Source: Notolepis coatsorum (Eukaryota > Chordata > Actinopteri > Aulopiformes > Paralepididae). Taken from it: DNA of 64,000 nucleotides. The notes beneath the pieces were generated by a model that saw only the letters and a program-made list of their open reading frames with translations, did not search any database and was not told the origin of the DNA. Both the position numbers and the translations under genes were made by a program. Shown one piece after another: positions 20,930 through 59,287 of the stretch. Positions within the stretch are counted from its first letter, which is position 1, and the number at the start of each line of letters is the position of its first letter. The DNA is taken from contig OZ020599.1 in NCBI GenBank assembly GCA_963971535.1, positions 97,919,646 to 97,983,645 of the forward strand, written 5' to 3'.

Positions 20930-21300
20930 TATGAATTACAAATGGGGGACCCTGATGTAAACAAGACAAACGTCTTTCTCTGGTCTGCATCCCCTTAACA
21001 ATTGTTTGATACTTTTCTGGACTCTTTGTATCATAAACAGTACTGTATTTGCAAATCTGGTATGTCATAATTAAATGTATAGATGTAGCAGTAGGCCTAC
21101 TGTATCTGTATGTCATGTATGTCATATATGTTATGATGAATTGAAAATGGGGGACCCTGATGTAAACAAGATGAAAGTCTTTCTCTGGTCTGCATCCCCT
21201 TAACAATTGTGTGTATTGAGCTGTACTGTATTGTACCCATTCTGCAATCTGTTAATAACGTTTTCAATCAATCAATCAACATTTATAACACAATAACAAG
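20930..21300 (+). repeat. Dispersed repeat with (CAAT)n end, related to 46.07-46.28 kb
   Basis: 'gggggaccctgatgtaaaca' with 'ctttctctggtctgcatccc' occurs at 20,943 and again near 21,152, followed by 'acccattctgcaatctgtta' and an (AATC)n tail. The same string appears inverted at 46,068-46,285. Its identity as a retroelement 3' end is an inference. Confidence 0.6.
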
Positions 21301-21361
21301 TGTGAAAATAACATGTTATTTATTTGAACAGTCAGAAAAAATAAATAACGCACATCCTCTT

Positions 21362-21946
21362 ACCGTGCATGGCCTGGCTCTTACCGTGCATGGCCTGGCT
21401 CTTACCGTGCATGGTCCAGCTCTTACCGTGCATGGCCTGGCTCTTACCGTGCATGGTCCAGTTCTTACCGTGCATGGCCTGGCTCTTACCGTGCATGGCC
21501 TGGCTCTTACCGTGCATGGCCTGGCTCTTACCGTGCATGGTCCAGTTCTTACCGTGCATGGCCTGGCTCTTACCGTGCATGGCCTGGCTCTTACCGTGCA
21601 TGGCCTGGCTCTTACCGTGCATGGCCTGGCTCTTACCGCGCATGGTCCAGTTCTTACCGTGCATGGCCTGGCTCTTACCGCGCATGGTCCAGTTCTTACC
21701 GTGCATGGCCTGGCTCTTACCGTGCATGGTCCAGCTCTTACTGTGCATGGCCTGGCTCTTACTGTGCATGGCCTGGCTCTTACCGTGCATGGCCTGGCTC
21801 TTACCGTGCATGGCCTGGCTCTTACCGTGCATGGTCCAGTTCTTACCGTGCATGGCCTGGCTCTTACCGTGCATGGTCCAGTTCTTACTGTGCATGGCCT
21901 GGCTCTTACCGTGCATGGCCTGGCTCTTACCGTGCATGGTCCAGTT
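21362..21946. repeat. 21-bp minisatellite, about 28 units
   Basis: Unit ctcttaccgtgcatggcctg plus g, with variants ggtccagtt and ccgcgc. Unit length divisible by three keeps several frames open on both strands, giving 224-253-codon ORFs that are artefacts of periodicity. Confidence 0.95.
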
Positions 21947-23407
21947 AAGGAGCACCTTTAGCCACAGGCTCATCTCCATCACAGATGTGCAGAGGAACAT
22001 GTCAGGTGTTCCTTTTTTCCATCTGCTGGCCTCAGTCAGATAGGATGCTATAGTCCAGCATGTTTCATTTGATTTCATATTCTCTACATACATCTAAGTA
22101 AGTATAAGTAAAATTGTATTTTATATAGAACCTTTTTAGAACAAAGTTACAAAGTGCACTAACAGCAAAATCACAATCACCTAGAGGCGGAGTAGGTACA
22201 TAGGAGTTTGGAAATGTATGAAGGGGCAAGACCATGTAGGGCCTTGGATGTGATGTATCTTGAAGTATATTCTATACTTTACAGGGAGCCAATGAAGGGA
22301 TGTGAGGATTGGTGTGATGATGTGTGACCTGCGTTGGTTTTGGTTAGCAGGCTGGCTGCAGCGTTTGTTGCAGGTGGGACAGGGCTGCTTGCTTGAGACA
22401 GGAGAAAAGAGCATTGCAGTAGTCAAGGCGTGAACAAATTTGGGTATGGATCAGTAATTCTAGATCCCTGATTGATAGCATTGATTAGATTTGAGTTGGA
22501 AAAAGCAGGTTTGCACACGCTTGTTTATGTGTCGGTCAAAGTTCAGATTTTTTGTCAAAGATTACACCCAGAGGGTTGAAGAGGGTTTAACATTAGAGGC
22601 CAGAGGGCAGATACAGGGACTATTTATTAGGGCCAATTTTGTATGAATTTAGCTGAAGGAAATTGAGTGACATCCAATTCTTAATGACAGCCAGGTAGTC
22701 CTGGAGGGTACCAACATTTCCTATATGGTTTGTCTTAACTGAAAGATATAGCTGCACGTCATCAGCGTGGCGTCGGTGAGAGATGAACTAACCAGGTCGC
22801 CTAGAGGTAACATGTACAGTGAGAAAAGGATGAGACCAAGGGTTGAACCCTGCGTAACTCCACAGATTATAAGGGCAGTTGAGGACACAAAGTGATCTGA
22901 CTATGACAACCTGAAACCTTGGGTTTGACAGATAGGACGAGAGCCAATTGAGAGCAGCAGAGCCTGAGATACATACCCACTGGTTTAGACGTTCAATCAA
23001 GATGGAGTGATCATCAATAGTATCAAGAAGAGTCAATCAGGACCAGGATATAATGTTCTCCATTGTCAGCCTGCATGAGGATGTAATTTGTCACTCTTAG
23101 CAGTGCAGTTTCTGTACTATGATGGCAGTGAAAACCGGATTGGAATTTATTGAAAATATTTTGATCCTCAATGACGAGGAGCTGCCGTGCAATGATTTCT
23201 TCAAAGCCTATGTAACGATTTTGGAGATGAAAGGTAGCTTCGAAATCGGTCTACAGTTATTTGATTGGGGGTTAGACCAAGGGCAGGTTTTTAGTTTTTT
23301 GTAAGTAGGTCGGACGCTCGCCATCTTAATCAGGAGCACAGCCAGAGGTGAGAGAGATTGATCATGGAGAGCAGGCTAGGACCCAGGGTGGACAGGACCT
23401 CATCAAG

Positions 23408-34210: not shown

Positions 34211-35669
34211 AGAGGGGGGGGGGGCAGGTGCAGACGGCTCCTTTGTGACAAGATTAAATGAAGCAGTAAATTTCCTACACATGTTAGAGAAGGGTATTAA
34301 GATAGTGGAAGAGACGGCAGTCAAGAAAGGCCTGCCAAACTGTCAGGGATGTTTCCACAGCCCAGGGCAGCGAGGCCTGTCAGACAACAAGCCCGTTTTC
34401 CTTCTCAGATGCGCTCTCCTCAGAAGCCTTCGGATCATTACACCCTACTATTTTTTTTATATTTTTTTTATTAGTTATTATTGCTAAACCATATTTCATA
34501 ATGTCATTTTTTCCTCCCCACTGGTATTCCTTAATTCATCTGTTTTTCATGGCCTTTCGCCTGTGGGTTGTAAAAGTTGACTTTATTGAGTCAATCGTGG
34601 AATACGCACAATGCCATTGGACTGAGAGGAGCGGTCAGCCGATGTCAGCGAGTATTGTGTATCTTATATGAACCATCAAGGCTGAGTCCTTCTGAAGCAA
34701 ACTGTTCCGGGACCGAGGATTACATGAACAGAATAAACTATTTCGAACAGTCTTTCTTGCTCTATATACCAACACATTCTCTCCCTGTGTTCAACTTAAA
34801 ATATAGGTCATAGGAGTTTATAAAAATGCAATCATTTGCTTCCATTTATGCAAATAAATATACACCAAGGCGGATGGAAATGGGACATAAAATTATGTTT
34901 TAGAAACAGTCTTGGGGAAGTATCATTGAATATCTGAATATTTGGAAAACGGTTTCACAAGTTCAGCAGGGCGACGGTGACACACGTTTGATTAATAAGG
35001 ATCGTGTGGAAGTGACATTTAGGAAAGCTGTTGAAATACATTATTCCTGTGAGCTCTTGATTGAAACTCAGGGGGGACATTTCTAGCTTTTAAGCTATAG
35101 CACTTGTTTTTCTTATGAACGGACAGATTATTCCTGCCTGAATCAGATCAGAAGGAACACAAGGTTCCATCGTGATAAGACAGCTGAAGTACACTCTGCC
35201 TCAGGAGGAGACTCAAACATCTTAATCCGTTTGGACAGGCATTCCTAATTAAGCAAATATGTTTGTGCACACACTGTGCTAATCTCTTTGAGGAGTTTGA
35301 CGGGGAGTTTGGACCAACATATGGACTCACTAAAGGCAACCGTTAACCGTTACTAACCATTGTGACATGGGCCACGTTTGATATACGACGAGGCTGCCGC
35401 CGTTTCAGAAGGGGAAGAAGGGACATGTTGCCCCGTCTGTCCGCTGTGATCAGGGCGTGTGAGAAGCGTGTGCAGTATATCAGCAGCCCAGGGAGGCAGA
35501 GAGGCAGGGAGAGGGAGGCGGAGATGGTTCCAGTTCCTGTCTGTTTGCTGTCAAGTCAAATTAAGCCCTGAGTTGAGGCAACTTCAAAGAGGAGCTGAAG
35601 AATCTGGATCACCGGGTCCTAAATAGGCCAGTGAGTCCCGAGGGGGAGATGGGCCACATACTGGTCCCG
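34211..35669. other. Intronic sequence, nothing recognised
   Basis: Mostly non-repetitive. Small ORFs show no domain. Confidence 0.4.
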
Positions 35670-37734
35670 CCTAGCCTGGGTCTGCCCAGTCTGGATCTGC
35701 CTAGCCTGGATCTACCTAACCTGGGTCTGCCCAGCCTGGGTCTACCTAGCCTGGATCTGCCCAGCCTGGGTCTGCCTAGCCTGGATCTGCCTAGCCTGGA
35801 TCTGCCTAGCCTGGGTCTGCCTAGCCTGGATCTGCCTAGCCTGGATCTGCCTAGCCTGGGTCTGCCCAGCCTGGGTCTGCCTAGCCTGGATCTGCCTAGC
35901 CTGGATCTGCCCAGTCTGGGTCTGCCTAGCCTGGATCTGCCTAGCCTGGATCTACCTAACCTGGGTCTGCCTAGCCTGGATCTGCCCAGCCTGGATCTAC
36001 CTAGCCTGGATCTGCCCAGCCTGGGTCTACCTAGCCTGGGTCTACCTAGCCTGGATCTGCCCAGCCTGGATCTACCTAGCCTGGATCTGCCCAGCCTGGG
36101 TCTGCCCAGCCTGGGTCTGCCTAGCCTGGGTCTGCCTAGCCTGGATCTACCTAGCCTGGATCTGCCCAGCCTGGGTCTGCCCAGCCTGGGTCTGCCTAGC
36201 CTGGGTCTACCTAGCCTGGGTCTGCCCAGTCTGGGTCTGCCTAGCCTGGATCTACCTAGCCTGGATCTACCTAGCCTGGATCTACCTAGCCTGGATCTGC
36301 CCAGCCTGGATCTACCTAGCCTGGATCTGCCCAGCCTGGGTCTGCCCAGCCTGGATCTACCTAGCCTGGGTCTGCCTAGCCTGGGTATGCCTTGCCTGGG
36401 TCTGCCTAGCCTGGATCTGCCCAGCCTGGATCTACCTAGCCTGGGTCTACCTAGCCTGGGTCTGCCTAGCCTGGGTCTGCCCAGTCTGGATCTACCTAGC
36501 CTGGGTCTGCCCAGTCTGGATCTACCTAGCCTGGATCTACCTAGCCTGGATCTGCCCAGCCTGGATCTGCCTAGCCTGGGTCTGCCCAGTCTGGATCTAC
36601 CTAGCCTGGGTCTGCCCAGTCTGGATCTACCTAGCCTGGGTCTGCCCAGTCTGGATCTACCTAGCCTGGATCTGCCTAGCCTGGATCTGCCCAGCCTGGG
36701 TCTGCCTAGCCTGGATCTACCTAGCCTGGGTCTGCCTTGCCTGGGTCTGCCTAGCCTGGGTCTGCCTAGCCTGGGTCTACCTAGCCTGGGTCTGCCTAGC
36801 CTGGATCTGCCCAGCCTGGATCTGCCCAGCCTGGATCTGCCTAGCCTGGATCTACCTAGCCTGGGTCTGCCTTGCCTGGGTCTGCCTAGCCTGGGTCTGC
36901 CTAGCCTGGGTCTACCTAGCCTGGGTCTGCCTAGCCTGGGTCTGCCCAGTCTGGGTCTGCCTAGCCTGGATCTACCTAGCCTGGATCTGCCCAGCCTGGA
37001 TCTGCCTAGCCTGGATCTGCCTAGCCTGGGTCTGCCTAGCCTGGGTCTACCTAGCCTGGGTCTACCTAGCCTGGATCTGCCCAGCCTGGATCTGCCTAGC
37101 CTGGATCTGCCCAGCCTGGATCTGCCTAGCCTGGATCTGCCTAGCCTGGGTCTGCCTAGCCTGGGTCTGCCTAGCCTGGGTCTACCTAGCCTGGGTCTAC
37201 CTAGCCTGGGTCTACCTAGCCTGGGTCTACCTAGCCTGGGTCTACCTAGCCTGATCTGCCTAGCCTGGATCTGCCTAGCCTGGATCTGCCCAGCCTGGAT
37301 CTGCCTAGCCTGGATCTGCCTAGCCTGGATCTGCCCAGCCTGGATCTGCCCAGCCTGGATCTGCCCAGCCTGGATCTGCCCAGCCTGGATCTGCCCAGCC
37401 TGGATCTGCCCAGCCTGGATCTGCCCAGCCTGGATCTGCCTAGCCTGGATCTGCCTAGCCTGGATCTGCCTAGCCTGGATCTGCCTAGCCTGGATCTGCC
37501 CAGCCTGGGTCTGCCTAGCCTGGATCTGCCTAGCCTGGGTCTGCCTAGCCTGGATCTGCCTAGCCTGGATCTGCCCAGCCTGGGTCTGGCCCAGCCTGGG
37601 TCTGCCTAGCCTGGATCTGCCTAGCCTGGATCTGCCTAGCCTGGATCTGCCCAGCCTGGGTCTGCCTAGCCTGGATCTGCCCAGCCTGGAATCTACCTAG
37701 CCTGGATCTGCCCAGCCTGGGTCTGCCTAGCCTG
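35670..37734. repeat. 15-bp minisatellite, about 138 units
   Basis: Unit cctagcctggatctg with variants (cccag, gggtct, ctacct). An ORF of 689 codons crosses it on the + strand as PSLDL/PSLGL pentapeptides, changing register at a single-base loss near 37,253. It lies inside the SCUBE intron. Confidence 0.96.
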
Positions 37735-39217: not shown

Positions 39218-39339
39218 CTTGGTCGAGTACAAGGAGAACACAGAGGCTGACCAATGGAGTTTCCTGACTTCCTTGCTCTGCGTGGCTCTCATTAAAACCT
39301 ATAGTATTCTTCTTTCTCCTGTACACACGCTAGAGATTT

Positions 39340-39972
39340 ACCACAGAAATACTGTAGTGAAATACTGTAGTGAAATACTGTAGTGAAACGCTGTAGTGAA
39401 ATACTGTAGTGAAATGCTGTAGTGAAATACTGTAGTGAAATGCTGTAGTGAAAATGCTGTAGTGAAACGCTGTAGTGAAATACTGTAGTGAAATACTGTA
39501 GTGAAATGCTGTAGTGAAATGCTGTAGTGAAATGCTGTAGTGAAATACTGTAGTGAAATACTGTAGTGAAATGCTGTAGTGAAATGCTGTAGTGAAATGC
39601 TGTAGTGAAATACTGTAGTGAAATGCTGTAGTGAAATACTGTAGTGAAATGCTGTAGTGAAATGCTGTAGTGAAATGCTGTAGTGAAATGCTGTAGTGAA
39701 ATACTGTAGTGAAATGCTGTAGTGAAATACTGTAGTGAAATGCTGTAGTGAAACGCTGTAGTGAAATACTGTAGTGAAATACTGTAGTGAAATGCTGTAG
39801 TGAAATGCTGTAGTGAAATGCTGTAGTGAAATGCCTGTAGTGAAATACTGTAGTGAAATACTGTAGTGAAAATACTGTAGTGAAATGCTGTAGTGAAATA
39901 CTGTAGTGAAATACTGTAGTGAAATACTGTAGTGAAATGCTGTAGTGAAATGCTGTAGTGAAATGCTGTAGT
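39340..39972. repeat. 13-bp minisatellite, about 48 units
   Basis: Unit gaaatgctgtagt or gaaatactgtagt, with single-base indels near 39,450, 39,834 and 39,870. Confidence 0.96.
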
Positions 39973-40199
39973 GATTTATAGTATTCCTGTGTTTGTTTCC
40001 TCTTTATACACCAGTTTGTGCGTTCACCTTAGTATTTCTGTAGTGGAATATTATTGAAACGTATGTGACTGTATGTATTCCTGTGGTTTTATAAAAAACA
40101 ACCTTGGCTGAACAGGAACACTACAGTTTTTACTATAGTTCATCTTCGTATGCGCGTGTGTCTGTGTATTTATGCATGTACAGTACTGTATGTGTATGT

Positions 40200-51262: not shown

Positions 51263-52675
51263 TGCAGCTGCACCTCTCTGTCTCCTCTAATCCTCTGTGA
51301 TCACCTCAGATCTGACTGGGTGGGGAGTTGGCAGCTACCTGCCCAGAGACAGACAGGGCGTAGGTAGGAGGGTAAGTTTGTTTGCTATGTTTGTTACTTT
51401 CCTGTCTGCAAACGAGTTCCTGTTAGCTAGCAAGTAGCAAGTTGAAGTTGAATAAACGTTTAGCAAGATTTTATTTTGCAAACTACATTTTGTGTCGTCG
51501 TTTTTAGTTAACGACATTGCATGGATCATTTCGCCACGTTAGTGACACATGATCTCTCCATTAACGTGACGTCTCGTCTCGTTTTCGTCGGGGGGAAAGC
51601 TTCGTTGACGACCATATTTAGTCGTAATTTTGGTTGACTAAATTAACACTGTAGGTAGGCAAGTACAGCACAGAAGGCTCAGGAACCACAGGGGAGGTCC
51701 CACAAGCTCAGCGTCTAGTCTCCTTGTAGTCCTGGAAGGAGGTTTTAATCTTCTGGCTATGTGTGGGGAGGCATATCAGGAGGACTCAAATGATACCAAG
51801 CACCTTCTGCACGGATCCCAGATATATATATATATATAATATATGTGTTAACCTTGAGGGCATCTCATCCGAGGTAATAAGATGACCACAATGATTCCAA
51901 ACATGTTCTGTATGGATTCCAGATACAACTAGAAAAACCTTGATCCATTCTGCCAAACATTTCCCGCGAACCACTGCAATACAGCTGAAATTTCAAATAA
52001 TGATCACAGGGTCATCCTTGCAAAAAGCATGGTGGGTTCAGGCTCCAGGGATGACAGACAGACGTGGTTCATACAGACATTCTGATGAGCGAAGCTTCGC
52101 CTTCAGAGCATCTCACACATTCTGTTTTCAGTCTCACTCCTTGGCACAGAATAATTTCCTCTGGAAGGAACAGGACAAAGTGATTTTCTTGAGAGATGAA
52201 AAACTGCAGCGCCGGTCCCACCCTGGGGCTTTCAGGGGTCAGTCGTGGGGTCAACCCCAGTCTCACCTCTCTCTCTCAAGCTGCAAAACAAATAGGTTAT
52301 TATCGCTCCCAGACTGACCCGCAGTGATCCGGCTCTACAATGGGATTCAATCTTAACACGTTTCAAAAACAGCGGGTTCGGTTTTTGTTTAGTTCCACAA
52401 AAGCTGGTTTCACAAAAAGGGAAAAAGCGGGAGTTAGGGTTCAACATCAAACTGTTCGGCTGAAAAGAAAAGGAGTACAAATGACCAGCGTTATCCTATG
52501 TGGTACGAGCCACTCGTGAAGACGACCGAACGTGACGCACATAAAAATGGAAATTGCGATTAGACCGTATTAGTCATTCATTTAGTGTTTGTTCACTGTG
52601 CAGTATTATCGCCAAGTGGAGAGCCGTTAAAAAGTAATGATTTCCCTGTCACAGGCCACAGTCTGAAGCCCCCTA
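51263..52675. other. No gene recognised; possible MITE end near 51.6 kb
   Basis: About 51,600-51,650 ('ttggttgactaaattaacac') resembles the end of a common fish MITE, but no partner end was found. A short (TA)n lies near 51,822. No exon recognised. Confidence 0.4.
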
Positions 52676-53186
52676 ACCCTTTCACTACCACACTACAGAC
52701 GGTTAACCCTTTCACTACCACACTACAGACGGTTAACCCTTTCACTACCACACTACAGACGGTTAACCCTTTCACTACCACACTACAGAAGGTTAACACT
52801 TTCACTACCACACTACAGACGGTTAACCCTTTCACTACCACACTGCAGAAGGTTAACCCTTCACTACCACGCTACAGAACCCTTTCACTGCAACGCTACA
52901 GAAGGTTAACACTTTCTCTACCACGCGACAGAAGGTTAACCCTTCACTGCCACGCTACATAAGGTTAACCCTTCACTGCCACGCTACATAAGGTTAACCC
53001 TTTCACTACCATGCTACAGAAGGTTAACCCTTTCACTACTCCGCTACCCTTTCACTACCCCGCTACAGACGGTTAACCCTTTCACTACCACGCTACAGAA
53101 GGTTAACCTTTCACTAACATGCTACAGAAGGTTAACCCTTTCACTACCACACTACAGAAGGTTAACCTTTCACTACCACAACATGA
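52676..53186. repeat. TTAACCC-unit array, left of DIRS element
   Basis: About 18 forward units of 'aaccctttcactaccacact' plus 'acagacggtt' or 'acagaaggtt', decaying toward the right. It continues past the DIRS insertion at 58,316. Confidence 0.92.
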
Positions 53187-53206
53187 GGTTCTATGACGTT
53201 AATGGA

Positions 53207-53378
53207 TTGCTCAGCACCTGTTCTGCACTGTACTTCACTTCGTGCACGAGCACTGAATAAAAAATTCCACCATGTACCTTTACCTCCCAACATCCGTCTG
53301 ACCACACCCCCTTCCGCTTACCTTCATAAGCAGGTGTGTGGCCACCTACTCGCCTCCTTCTTCACTTTCACCACAAGG
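53207..53378 (+). repeat. DIRS left inverted terminal repeat
   Basis: From TTGCTCAGCACCTGTTCTGC to TTTCACCACAAGG; inverted copy at 58,104-58,273 with a small indel and few mismatches. Confidence 0.92.
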
Positions 53379-53498
53379 AAGTGCCTTCGGTAGATCCCCA
53401 CTTGACGAGGTTGTTAGCTGAAGAAAGTTGAGACGTGTTTACATTGTGCTTATTTTTTTCTTCTCTCATAAATATTCGATAGAAAAAGATAAGTCATA

Positions 53499-55167
53499 AT
53501 GTCTACTTCGGAGAGTCGCAGAGCCACTCTCCACCAGCGGTTCTCCATTTCCGCCTCCGTCGTGCGTTCTGGTGCGGGGCTGTTGCCTCTCTCGTGGTTG
53601 GCAGCCACGCCCGGTAGGCGTCCAATGGGTAGTTTGCCTCTCCAAAGAGCTGGTGCACCGGTGCCGTCGCTTCTGCGATGGCCTGGTCATGGCTCTGGTT
53701 CCTCTGCTTCCGGGGAATCGTCCGCTGTTGAGCGGCCGGTTCCTTTGGTTCCGGAGGATTTGAGACGCAAACTTTTTGCGTCTGCTCGCTCCCGTCGCAA
53801 GATGGTGGCTTGCAGACGCGAACGGCCTGGGTTTGGTGAATTGCTGGAGCCCGATGAGGATGCGTCGGTCTCTACCTGCCCGATGGAAACAGAGGATTAC
53901 ATGGTGGAGGCAGACGGGTTCTTATTCGAAGGCCCGGTGGAGACATGTATCCCGGCCGTCCAGGTAACACTGGAGGGGGGTGAAATGTCTCCTTGGGGGC
54001 CATGTTTGAGGATGTCGGGGAAGACCCTCTGACTCGTCGGCAGGATGCCCTACTATCAGCCACATCAGAATGTGGCTCCTTGACCAGTCGTAGCCTGCTG
54101 CATGTGAGGGATGCGGGCTCGGTGGAGGAAAGTCTGCAGGGGGAACTGCAGGCTTTGTTTCCCGAGCTTATGGCGGTGGCGGCCGCCGCAAACGGCGTGC
54201 CGCTGCCGCAGCCACTGCCTGTTCCTGTCCCTGATGATCTAATAGGTCATCTCTGGCAGCGTCGCCCGGTGAGAGGGGTGGACGTTGTCTACCCATTTTC
54301 CCCTCAATGGGGGTCTATGTTCGTCTGGGCCAGGTGGTGTCCCACATCATTGGCCTCACCCCCGCCTACGTGCCAGTCACGCGGGTGGCGGGTTTGGTCA
54401 ACGGTATGAGAGAGGGCATGCCACGGCTTGATAGGCCGATGGCCGCTCTCCTCTGTCCGGAGGTGGTGTGGGAGCCGTTACGCAAGCCGGTTCCTCAAGG
54501 GAAATCGGCGAGGCGGTTGGCTTATTGGAGCGACCAGTCATTCATCTCTGGAACGCAATCTCTGGCTGCCGCGTCTAACGCCGCGCAGCTGGCAAGATTT
54601 ATGTCCGGGATGTTGACGGGCGGCATGGAGCTGGGTGATGTCCAACATGACCAGCTCACCCAGGCGGTAGGAGCTGTCCTGCATCTGACTCAGCTGCAGG
54701 CCATATCCGCTGGGAAAGTGCGCGCCCTGGTGACTCTGATCCAGCGCCACCTTTGGCTGGAGCAGGCCGGTGTGCCGGAGAAGAAGAGAGCCCCTCTTCT
54801 AATGGCACCCCTCTCCGACGCTGGACTGTTCGGGAAGGCCCTGCAGTTGATGACCTCAACGTGCAGAGAAATGGCAGAGGAGCGATCCGTGCTCCAACCC
54901 CATTTTCCCCCTCCCGACATCGCTGGTGGAGTCAGACGGCTGCCACGTCGTCGAGCTTCCTCCGCCGTGACTGCTGCTGCTACCACCGCCACTGCTGGCC
55001 CTTCGAAGAAGGCCAGGAGGAGAGAGGGCGCCGCCGCTGCAGCCGGCCCATCCACGCCTGGAGGAGACGGTAGGGATCGTCGTGACCAGCCGCCGATTGT
55101 CTACCGTCCCTCCGGGGCTTCCCGCGGTGGCAAATCCCGAGCGGCTCAAGGCGGCCGGCGCCGCTAG
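53499..55167 (+). pseudogene. DIRS GAG-like ORF with two frameshifts
   Basis: ATG at 53,499 (MSTSESRRATLHQRFSIS). Three overlapping open segments, about 53,499-54,000, 54,000-54,300 and 54,307-55,167, together about 555 codons. The last carries LWLEQAGVPEKKRAPLLMAP then SDAGLFGKAL, comparable to the LWL-...-LDAP-...-GLFG block of DIRS GAG proteins as I recall them, and an Arg/Lys-rich C-terminus (KKARRREG, GGRRR) suited to nucleic-acid binding. Each register change corresponds to one missing base, near 53,992 and 54,305. Region is GC- and CpG-rich. Function as a nucleocapsid-like protein is inferred from the family. Confidence 0.78.
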
Positions 55168-55238
55168 ACCCAGTGACTTTTTTCCCCTGTGGTCCCATCT
55201 GTTAATTCCCTCCCCAGCCTCTCATATAATTTGTTCAA

Positions 55239-55267
55239 AAATAAAAAGTCCCCTCTGAAGGGGGACT
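55239..55267 (+). terminator. Poly(A) signal and hairpin after the GAG-like ORF
   Basis: AATAAA at about 55,239-55,244, followed by a stem AGTCCCCT / AGGGGGACT with a CTGA loop and a T-run. About 75 bp after the ORF stop. It may end the GAG transcript. Confidence 0.45.
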
Positions 55268-58010
55268 GTATTTTTTGTTAAACAAACTGTGTGTTTCTTC
55301 ACCAAAACATATGATGAGGTTGCAAAGTGTGAATCTTCACTAGTATACATTGATAGAAGGGTTGAGTTCGTGTTATGAGCTTAAGCAAGGTCTGCAGCAT
55401 ACACTCGGTTATAGAAGGGTTTCTACCTCGGCCTGACACTCCACATGCAGGTAGAGGCTGGTTGTATGGTCTGTTGCTTACACAAGTAATATTGAGCTAC
55501 AACACTGTTGTGTTAGTTGCAGTAATGCTCGTATACACACGTTCCACGGCCCAGCCGTTCACTCTCTCTATCAGTGTCTTTTCTATGTACAACATGGGAT
55601 GCGGGTGTAGGATTCACACACACACGACTTGGTTTTGTTGTAAACCCTGTTCACAGTTCTGTGGGTAGCGTGCATTGTATTAGCTTGCGCTATTCATTGG
55701 CATTCTACCAAAGGTATCATATGCTACAGTTGTTATTGTGTGCAGGGGGAAGGGTTTGTGAGGGGGTGCCGAATAAACCCCTCCTTCCCTCTTCTGATTG
55801 GTCAGGGGGTTTTACTCGTCTCCTGTTAGGCCAGTCGGGGCCAAGCCGTTAGGCGACTTGGCAGGGAGGGGGGGGGGGGGGGGGGGGGGGAAGGGTTACC
55901 CTGACTCTACTCCTATTAAAAACAGGCGTTGAGTGTTGGGTTTTCCCCCGTCATAGCATACGTCACTACGCACGTTGCTGTTGACGATGGCTTCCGTGAG
56001 TTAGATCTTTACGTACGATCTGTTGATGTCAAAGTGTCGGGATAGAACGTAGGACTTACGGGTCCTCTACGTTCGATTTTATGTGTAACTTGAGTCGGTT
56101 GGTCACATGACTCATAGTTACCATGGCTTTTTCATTCTACGACTCACGTGGGAAGGCTCTCTGGGGAATTCAGTCTGAAATCCTCTGTGATAGGGGTGAC
56201 TGGATGTAAAAATGTAAACAGTTTTTACCCCCGGCTGTGTCGAATGGGATTCATGTCTGTTGGTGCTTCCTTCTTTTTTATAAAAAGAGTTGGAGTATAG
56301 GAAGCACCACACCCCTCTTGTCGTTTCCCCATGGCGCCTTGGAGATTCACTGAAAGGTCTAAATAGCCTGTTCATTGATGTGGTTGTGTCCCGACGCATG
56401 CATAGTGCTAGCTCGGGTTGTTCGTTACAGATCATGCAGTAGCTAGTACGCCTTGGTTGCTTGTGGTTAAAACAGCGTTTTTATAAAGCAACTGGGATGG
56501 AGGTTTTTCCTCTTCCGACAACCTGTTACTGGTTCTTGACGGATTCTCGTTCATATCTGGGGGATGATAACGGAATGGTTCTGAACATATGTAGAGGGGT
56601 CTCACGCCCTTGGGGTGGGCCACCGGGCGCGGTTCACACCGGCAGTCTGGGTGGCGCCCTCTTTTCATGTTTTAGTTCAAACACGCATATCTGCCCCTTC
56701 TCCTGGAGTAGGCATGTCGGCGTGGTTAGGGCACAGGACTGGTTCTGGTCGCGCTGGTCCAGGTCAGTTAACCCGTTTGTCCGCCGGGGATGCAGATCTG
56801 CTGTTCTGGTACCCTGAGGGACTTGGGCTTTTTTCCAGGGGGAAAAAAGGCCGGGTCGGCCCGGGGCGTTACGAGGTTAGGCGTTATGGAGATCCTTGTT
56901 GGGTACTTTGTACCTGGCACTATCATGGGGGCTGGTTCTCCTTTTTTCTTCACTCCTCTCTCACGCATGGCGAAGAGAGGGCTGTTGGGGTGGTCTTTGG
57001 ACCTCCTCTGGTAACCCTGTATACTTCCCGAGCCGCCTGGCCCGGTCCGAAGTAAAGGTTCGTTGATACCGTAGGCCTGGTATAACCCTTTTTTCTGAGG
57101 GGTTATAGGAACAACCACCGTCGGTACCAAGAGGGTGGTTGATTCTCTGGTATGTTGGAGCAGTGTCAACTCCCGGGTTACCCGGTTGAGTGTGCCCCTG
57201 CACGTTCATGACGTCTGCCTATCATGTCAGCCTTCTCTGCCTCGACCCCTCTGGGTGGGTTTTTTTTAATGGAGGCTTTGTCATGCACCAACGCCAGCAT
57301 ACGCCCCTTCCGCCGGGGGGGCTGTTTTCAGCTGACTCCTTTGGCGCCTGTCTCGTCCACAGTGCTCCAGGCTCAGGTTACAGCCTGTTGCTTGGTTTCC
57401 CCGGTATGCTGCCTGCTTCCGTTGGTTAACCTTTTTTGTGTGCTTATGGCCATGCTGACTGCCTGTTCTGCAGGGTCAGTGTGCCAGGCGGTGTGCTATT
57501 GGAGGGTAAGGGCCCGCTCTTGGAGGGGCCTTATCCGAATACGCTGGTGATGTGGGGGGCGGTGTCACTAAGTGACCGCCTGGTGGGGTCTTGATGCCTG
57601 GCGTCATTGACCTCTCCGGGCCCCCGTTCCAGGAGGTCCAGTCCCTTCAGTGGGTCTGGGTCTTCCTTCGCGCTCCGCTGCTACGGCCTTGCCACAGGGT
57701 TGGGTTTGCTCTTAAACCCTGTGATTTCTGGGGGCAGTAACGAGGTTGTTCCTTCCGTTCGTTCCCGGGTGGCATGCGGGTTGTGCGTGTGTGTAGTCGT
57801 GGGGTCAAGCCACGGTCTGCTCACCCTGTGCATTGAGTTGCTTGAGTGCCTCTTCGCACGGTCGGATCCGTCGCCCTCCCGTGAACCTCCAATAGGGGGG
57901 GTATCCTCCATTAGGGAGGGTCGGGGGGGCTCGGTCCTCCCCGGTCTGATGGTTGTGGGGGGCCTCAGCGGGGTACATTTGTCGGGCTATGGCTCCCGCT
58001 CAGCCCCTGT
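55268..58010. other. DIRS internal region without recognisable pol
   Basis: GT-rich on the + strand with a poly-G run (about 55,867-55,890). The longest frames (56,615-57,055 and 57,607-58,053 on +; 56,768-57,169 on -) show none of the reverse transcriptase, RNase H or recombinase motifs expected of DIRS pol. Confidence 0.6.
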
Positions 58011-58078
58011 TGCAGAACAGGTGCTGAGCAATGTATATAACCCAGTTCTATGAGTTAAATGGTGCGCTCAGCACCTGG
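58011..58078 (+). repeat. DIRS internal complementary region
   Basis: TGCAGAACAGGTGCTGAGCAA (58,011-58,031) is the exact reverse complement of the left terminus (53,207-53,227). The following bases through GCGCTCAGCACCTG (58,078) are the reverse complement of the right terminus (58,262-58,308). Confidence 0.93.
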
Positions 58079-58103
58079 ACGCCGCTGCGGCCCTTGATCT
58101 CAC

Positions 58104-58308
58104 CTTGTGGTGAAAGTTTGGGAAGGAGGCGAGTAGGTGGCCACACACCTGCTTATGAAGGTAAGCGGAAGGGGGTGTGGTCAGACGGATGTTGGGAGGT
58201 AAAGGTACATGGTGGAATTTTTTATTCAGTGCTCGTGCACGAAGTGAAGTACAGTGCAGAACAGGTGCTGAGCGCACCATTTAACTCATAGAACTGGGTT
58301 ATATACAT
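58104..58308 (-). repeat. DIRS right inverted terminal repeat and extension
   Basis: CCTTGTGGTGAAAGTTT to CAGGTGCTGAGC is the inverted copy of the left repeat. GCACCATTTAACTCATAGAA and following bases form the right-end extension matched only by the internal complementary region. Confidence 0.92.
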
Positions 58309-58310
58309 AA

Positions 58311-58525
58311 CCCTTCGTTAACCCTTTCACTACCACACTGCCGAAGGTTAACCCCTCACTACCACGCTACAGAAGGTTAACCCTTCACTACCACGCTACG
58401 AACCCTTTCACTGCCATGCTACAGAAGGTTAACCCTTTCACTACCAAACTACATAAGGTTAACCCTTTCACGGCCACACTACAGAAGGTTAACTCTTTCT
58501 CTACCCCGCTACAGACGGTTAACCC
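58311..58525. repeat. TTAACCC-unit array, right of DIRS element
   Basis: Resumes forward units ('ttaaccctttcactaccaca', 'ctacagaaggttaaccc') immediately after the DIRS right end. Confidence 0.92.
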
Positions 58526-59287
58526 GACGTGAAGGGAAGGCCGACCTTAACCGGGAGCACGCCCAGCGGCATGGACAGAAACGCCACACTCATTCAACAA
58601 TAAGCCCTGATTAAATGCACACCCAGTGCTGTGTGATTCAGTTTAATACTCTTTTGAAAACAAGTTTGTTCAGTTAAGATCTTTTGCGCAACCCATGAAA
58701 GGAGGCCTATACCGGCATCAACAGTGGCTCATCCCCGTTCACAGACCACTGCTCGTCGTGAAAACATTATGACAGCAGGAGGGAGATGGGCACGCAGGAC
58801 GGCATGCTTCGGGAGACGCTAACGTTTATTCTGTAAAATTTTTCACTTTCTCTTTTTCCAACCCACAGAGATCGCCGTGATCTGCAGAGGGGTACAAATT
58901 AGTAAATTAACAAACTGCCTCTGAGATAGCTGTGCATTCATTAGAAGTGTGAGCAATAATGAATAGATATATGTTGCCATATGCACACAATTCGAATCTA
59001 ATCGAATCCAAGTATGGTTGGGAGCCCTGTAGTGTACACAGACCCCCCCCCTACTCAGCGTGAGTCTGGACTGCCCTCTTGTGGTCAATGTGTGTCTGTA
59101 GTTTACAGTGGTTCTAAAACCTTGGCTCATGTCAAGCCAAGGACCCCTACAAATAGATCCACATTTAGGCCACATACCTTGATTTGATTTGATACGATTT
59201 TGTCTCTGGGACTTCCGTCTGAGATGGCTCTTGCTGGTAGATATGACTGAGTGTCCCAAATACCACAAATTATCTATATATGTACAA
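58526..59287. other. No gene recognised
   Basis: Non-repetitive. An ORF on the minus strand (58,843-59,268) has no recognisable domain. Confidence 0.4.

Follow-up and report, generated by a model that had tools for sequence, protein, structure and literature searches.

The question raised by this locus, a DIRS-type retrotransposon in a 64,000-nt window of Notolepis coatsorum DNA (contig OZ020599.1, positions 97,919,646 to 97,983,645; all coordinates below are positions in this window, and relatives were sought in 3.42 Gb of genome), is whether an element that carries a gag gene without reverse transcriptase (RT), RNase H (RH) or tyrosine recombinase (YR) is one deleted copy or a member of a family that is built in this way. 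The original prediction, made from the window alone, had favoured a non-autonomous DIRS family in which GAG is retained and pol, the gene of the missing enzymes, is borrowed in trans. We conclude that the element very probably belongs to a non-autonomous, gag-bearing DIRS family without RT, RNase H and YR, which would use enzymes supplied in trans, and is not one deleted copy. The retention of GAG and the lack of pol were seen in the sampled copies, while mobilisation by the enzymes of another element is what we infer from copy number and the absent pol. The features of the window copy are as follows, L071 being a complete DIRS element of the same genome.

53188..58319, + strand: whole element of 5,132 nt, starting and ending with GTT; limits of the sequence shared among copies, beyond which the flanks diverge
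53188..53378, + strand: left terminus and left inverted terminal repeat (ITR), with 173 nt 97% complementary to the right side; matches 58103-58295 of other copies inversely
53493..55167, + strand: gag, split in this copy among three overlapping frames (53493-54032, 53984-54409, 54238-55167)
55168..58010, + strand: non-coding region at the expected place of pol and YR; no Pfam match, no match to pol or YR of L071
57959..58001, + strand: 43-nt block, 84% identical to L071, adjoining (before) the internal complementary region
58011..58077, + strand: internal complementary region; circle junction lost through a private 28-nt deletion at 58031/58032
58103..58295, + strand: right ITR, from complementarity and comparison with other copies
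58296..58319, + strand: right extension, GTT-ended, pairing with the internal complementary region only; belongs to the 28-nt end that has 663 exact matches genome-wide

The family and the region in the place of pol

In the region 55170-58010, the absence of RT, RNase H and YR noted in the original prediction was upheld by both approaches that we used. Pfam returned nothing in six frames at E<=10, and when single frames were scanned, the sole match was a very weak one to Herpes_UL17 on the opposite strand (E 0.07; 12.4 bits, cut-off 25). The frames of L071 were used as probes against 51 loci (50 fetched loci and the window). Of these, several cover an insertion in common, three are very short or contain nothing but flank, 47 include 400 nt or more of the non-coding region, and 12 include 2,500 nt or more. 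At 1e-3 the RT/RNase H frame matched none of the 51 loci and the YR frame likewise none, whereas the L071 gag matched 18; by construction, the probes recover L071 itself. Neither did any of the other sampled copies, which come from three lineages, carry pol at this place. Three gag loci picked blind to their downstream sequence (L064-L066) have the same right part as the window family, and no long frame occurs in the 2.8 kb region of four relatives, with short frames of up to 156 aa in the window. Lineages share about 95% identity in this region, its non-CpG divergence being 0.026-0.035 against 0.035-0.049 at fourfold sites. One sub-threshold Rfam match (Trp_leader, 55240-55310, minus strand, 28 bits against 41) was taken as chance.

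Further genomic copies exist. In a DNA search with 27 candidates scored, six other copies span the whole stretch initially reported at 94-97% identity and four more span at least 4,538 nt in one piece, the others being partial. The exact 28-nt right end has 324 + 339 = 663 matches in the genome, with none for the reversed control, and because an intact copy gives two end matches, the number of copies with this exact end is very roughly 330. Among the first 100 places listed, 32 end pairs lie 251-273 nt apart by hand count, with a spacing of 269 in 13 of them and of 272 in 7. Copies were fetched for their likeness to the window, and the 272 class accounts for 21 of 24 exact pairs among them; the set is thus not representative of the family. 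In the sole 269-class locus examined, 130 nt show this non-coding sequence at 94.6% identity, at the place of YR if its layout is like that of L071. That the element had moved fairly recently holds in a relative sense only, the closest sampled relatives being 97-98% identical. At another place (G000:C9:86988335-86998032; L013-L015), three gag copies of equal score are spaced by exactly 4,387 nt, which resembles a tandem array made of the element.

The predicted GAG-like gene is present, but it is frameshifted in the window copy, which is a dead member of the family, having also lost 28 nt at the circle junction. Many relatives have a single open gag frame of about 558 aa, and among the 128 gag matches listed, which are ranked by score and thus favour intact copies, the frame is uninterrupted over at least 540 aa in 48 (hand count). 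The protein shares 38% identity over 170 aa with the gag of L071 (E 1e-28); it has no match in Pfam or among solved structures, and its structure model was unusable (mean pLDDT 29.9). In a context-corrected test with the neutral spectrum taken from the non-coding part of the element, the ratio of nonsynonymous to synonymous differences (N/S) in gag was 0.47-0.74 of expectation across eight pairs (p between 2e-4 and 0.11). Fixed differences between the three lineages, judged against a neutral N share of 0.684 set from the pairwise test, gave N/S of 23/28 for A-B (p 5e-4), 15/14 for A-C (p 0.045) and 13/22 for B-C (p 1e-4), in contrasts that share data. No stop was found among these fixed differences, although many gag copies were chosen for open frames, a bias against stops and not against N. 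Plain dN/dS (0.26-0.67 in nine frames, two of them from the same locus) was set aside, since synonymous sites are CpG-rich and it therefore overstates selection. Gag thus appears to be under real but moderate purifying selection in lineages already without pol, which makes the gag-only state a trait of the family.

Ends, circle junction and insertion sites

While the ITRs that had been claimed are present (53188-53360 and 58122-58294, 173 nt at 97% complementarity), the limits first given, 53207..58308, fell short of the true ends by 19 nt on the left and 11 nt on the right. With the right extension beside the ITRs, the layout is that of DIRS1-like elements. GTT stands at all 12 left ends sampled and at 30 of the 34 right ends, the remaining four being GAT or ATT. 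Beyond GTT the flanks of different copies are unrelated at either end, and in eight copies with both flanks no repeat beyond GTT was seen by eye, as for insertion at GTT without target duplication.

The internal complementary region consists, as described before, of two parts, one complementary to the left start and the other to the right end of the element. In relatives its reverse complement reads from the right end, ...AACCCTTC, through GTT into the left end, CTATGACGTTAATGG..., which is the junction of a closed circle, and 36 other loci have this junction in their internal region (overlap on the 3-nt circle junction). In the window copy 28 nt are missing exactly at the junction, and its own form occurs at one place in the genome by exact search; what had appeared to be a precise and clean junction is thus a deletion scar. 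Some copies begin with CTATGTCGTTAATGGC and have the identical letters in their own internal region, so the ends and the internal copy changed in step between lineages.

The element often lies within a 30-nt satellite (GTTAACCCTTTCACTACCACACTACAGAAG), which occurs within 250 nt in 10 of 34 sampled right flanks versus 0 of 19 unrelated loci (72 kb). It flanks the window copy (52670-53187 and 58320-58530) and the copies L003, L028, L031, L033, L034, L038, L042, L045 and L064; L073 is one additional case, and the element flank at C1:15332180 is the same satellite. Every satellite unit offers GTTAAC as a target, and the two flanks of L003, ...CTACAGAAG-GTT and GTT-AACC..., join into an unbroken 30-nt unit, which fits insertion at GTT.

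Other elements were noticed as well. L067 and L045 have the right-hand non-coding part in common with the window (77-99% per 300-nt bin) together with related ends, and the L071 probes found no gag, pol or YR in them; their inner part is repeated in the genome at 92-97%, and the left half is known from L067 only. They look like a gag-less derivative with related ends. A genome search with PF00589 matched single-recombinase elements, which were taken as Cryptons and not DIRS, and PF05869 (Dam methylase), which we took to be a DIRS domain, gave no match. A Crypton-like element (L049-L063) has a single recombinase frame, of 419 aa in nine among the matches listed, and may be young, as about 1.9 kb is identical among several of its copies. 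Elsewhere in the window, 21161-21961, 35577-37700 and 39292-40028 are not genes but long simple tandem arrays with several open frames (up to 707 aa).

A candidate helper and rival explanations

Where might the missing enzymes come from? An RNase H probe had at least 150 matches in the genome (150 were listed), many of them equal in score and with a frame of 668 aa, L071 among them. This element (G000:C13:27449300-27455800) is about 5.4 kb long and has ITRs of 187 nt at 96%, an internal region, gag and GTT ends. Its RT matches PF00078 (1.3e-25), RT_RNaseH reaches 9e-4 and stays below its cut-off, and its third frame, without Pfam match, carries at its end HSTR, a motif named for DIRS recombinases in PMC3266345. 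The L071 end has 1,446 + 1,456 = 2,902 exact matches in the genome. Compared with the window family, the last 28 nt show four differences, two of which fall at paired arm positions, so that the palindrome is kept. The autonomous partner envisaged in the original prediction was not found with identical ends, L071 sharing 24 of 28 terminal nt; L071 is related to the window family and is a plausible helper, the best candidate. Pairs of L071 ends have two spacings, about 283 and 285-286, and the RNase H-linked places compared by eye on C1 belong to the 285-286 class; possibly, the 283 class is a further set without enzymes.

Following the DIRS model, as given in PMC3266345, the family would be transcribed from its ITRs, its RNA packaged with its own or a related Gag and copied by a reverse transcriptase supplied in trans. 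Pairing with the internal complementary region would serve to close the circle, and a recombinase likewise supplied in trans, possibly from the complete family of L071 type, would insert it at GTT.

Alternatively, pol might simply have been deleted in the window copy or a few sisters of an otherwise complete DIRS family. While complete DIRS elements do exist in the genome and the 269-nt subclass is hardly sampled, we consider this very unlikely: the same 2.8 kb occurs in three lineages (12 of the 51 loci hold at least 2,500 nt of it) and the element has full DIRS length, which together suggest that sequence was replaced rather than lost, and the sampled 269-class locus is non-coding at the expected YR place. 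Hardly credible at all is a 2.8 kb region that encodes an unknown enzyme in replacement of pol, for which the frames of up to 156 aa, the high identity between lineages and the weak Herpes_UL17 match might be cited; six frames without a Pfam match, nothing similar to L071 pol or YR and no long frame in four relatives argue against it, and the non-CpG divergence of the region is not far below that of fourfold sites.

A good deal more likely than either, though we lean away from it, is that L071 is only a cousin and that a complete partner of the family's own, with nearly identical ends, is rare or lies beyond the matches listed. The four terminal differences and the low identity of the L071 gag speak for such a partner, and the RNase H matches among those listed are mostly of one family; on the other hand, among the matches listed, no gag or right-end place was seen by eye within 10 kb of an RNase H place. 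Several observations weigh against a gag-bearing family served in trans. The 269-nt subclass, 13 of 32 end pairs, is known from one 130-nt piece only. No complete element with ends identical to those of the window family was found, and L071 departs from it at 4 of 28 terminal nt and has otherwise dissimilar ITRs. The signal of selection is moderate: p 0.05 is missed by three of the eight single pairs, and for lineage A versus B+C the fixed gag differences are 12 N and 10 S (p 0.12). The absence of pol rests on similarity searches.

If the gag-bearing family is indeed served in trans, one could ask why Gag is retained by a non-autonomous element. As ends and circle junction are readable in hundreds of copies, their comparison could ask which terminal parts trans-acting enzymes need. 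It is conceivable, although rather unlikely, that the two families form a lasting two-part DIRS system, in which one supplies the enzymes and the other keeps a selected Gag that acts mainly on the RNA encoding it, or is used by or restrains the enzyme-bearing family.

Comparison with known systems

A gag-bearing non-autonomous DIRS element was not found in the literature searched, as far as its accessible text goes (including PMC9210276, PMC12477816, PMC2996953, PMC6681497 and PMC8498967), Repbase and most subscription papers lying outside this scope, where an entry may exist. L071 has a homologous gag, 24 of 28 terminal nt, the 43-nt block before the internal region and GTT ends in common with the window family, while it encodes RT/RNase H and the HSTR-bearing third frame and its ITRs are otherwise unrelated. 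DIRS1-like elements of ray-finned fishes (GaDIRS1, GaDIRS2 and TnDIRS1a), as described in PMC3266345, also have a GTT start, an AAC circle junction, a length of about 5 kb and gag first; their ITR/internal-region sizes are 36-46 and 56-57 nt, against about 40 and 58 nt in the relatives here (hand count). However, they encode RT/RH and YR, and the window family shows neither. SIRE, a derivative of VIPER, is also a non-autonomous tyrosine-recombinase retrotransposon, but as described in PMC6681497 it is a short trypanosome element (about 435 nt from the parts given), without gag and with another terminal layout.

TR-GAG and similar gag-only long terminal repeat (LTR) elements of plants are reported to keep gag and terminal structures, have no pol and are thought to move in trans, as we propose here. 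While TR-GAG has direct LTRs and an integrase partner, the window family has no direct LTRs; its terminal repeats are inverted, it carries an internal copy of the circle junction, and its partner would provide a recombinase. If our reading is true, the gag-only lifestyle of LTR retrotransposons also arose among recombinase-bearing retrotransposons.

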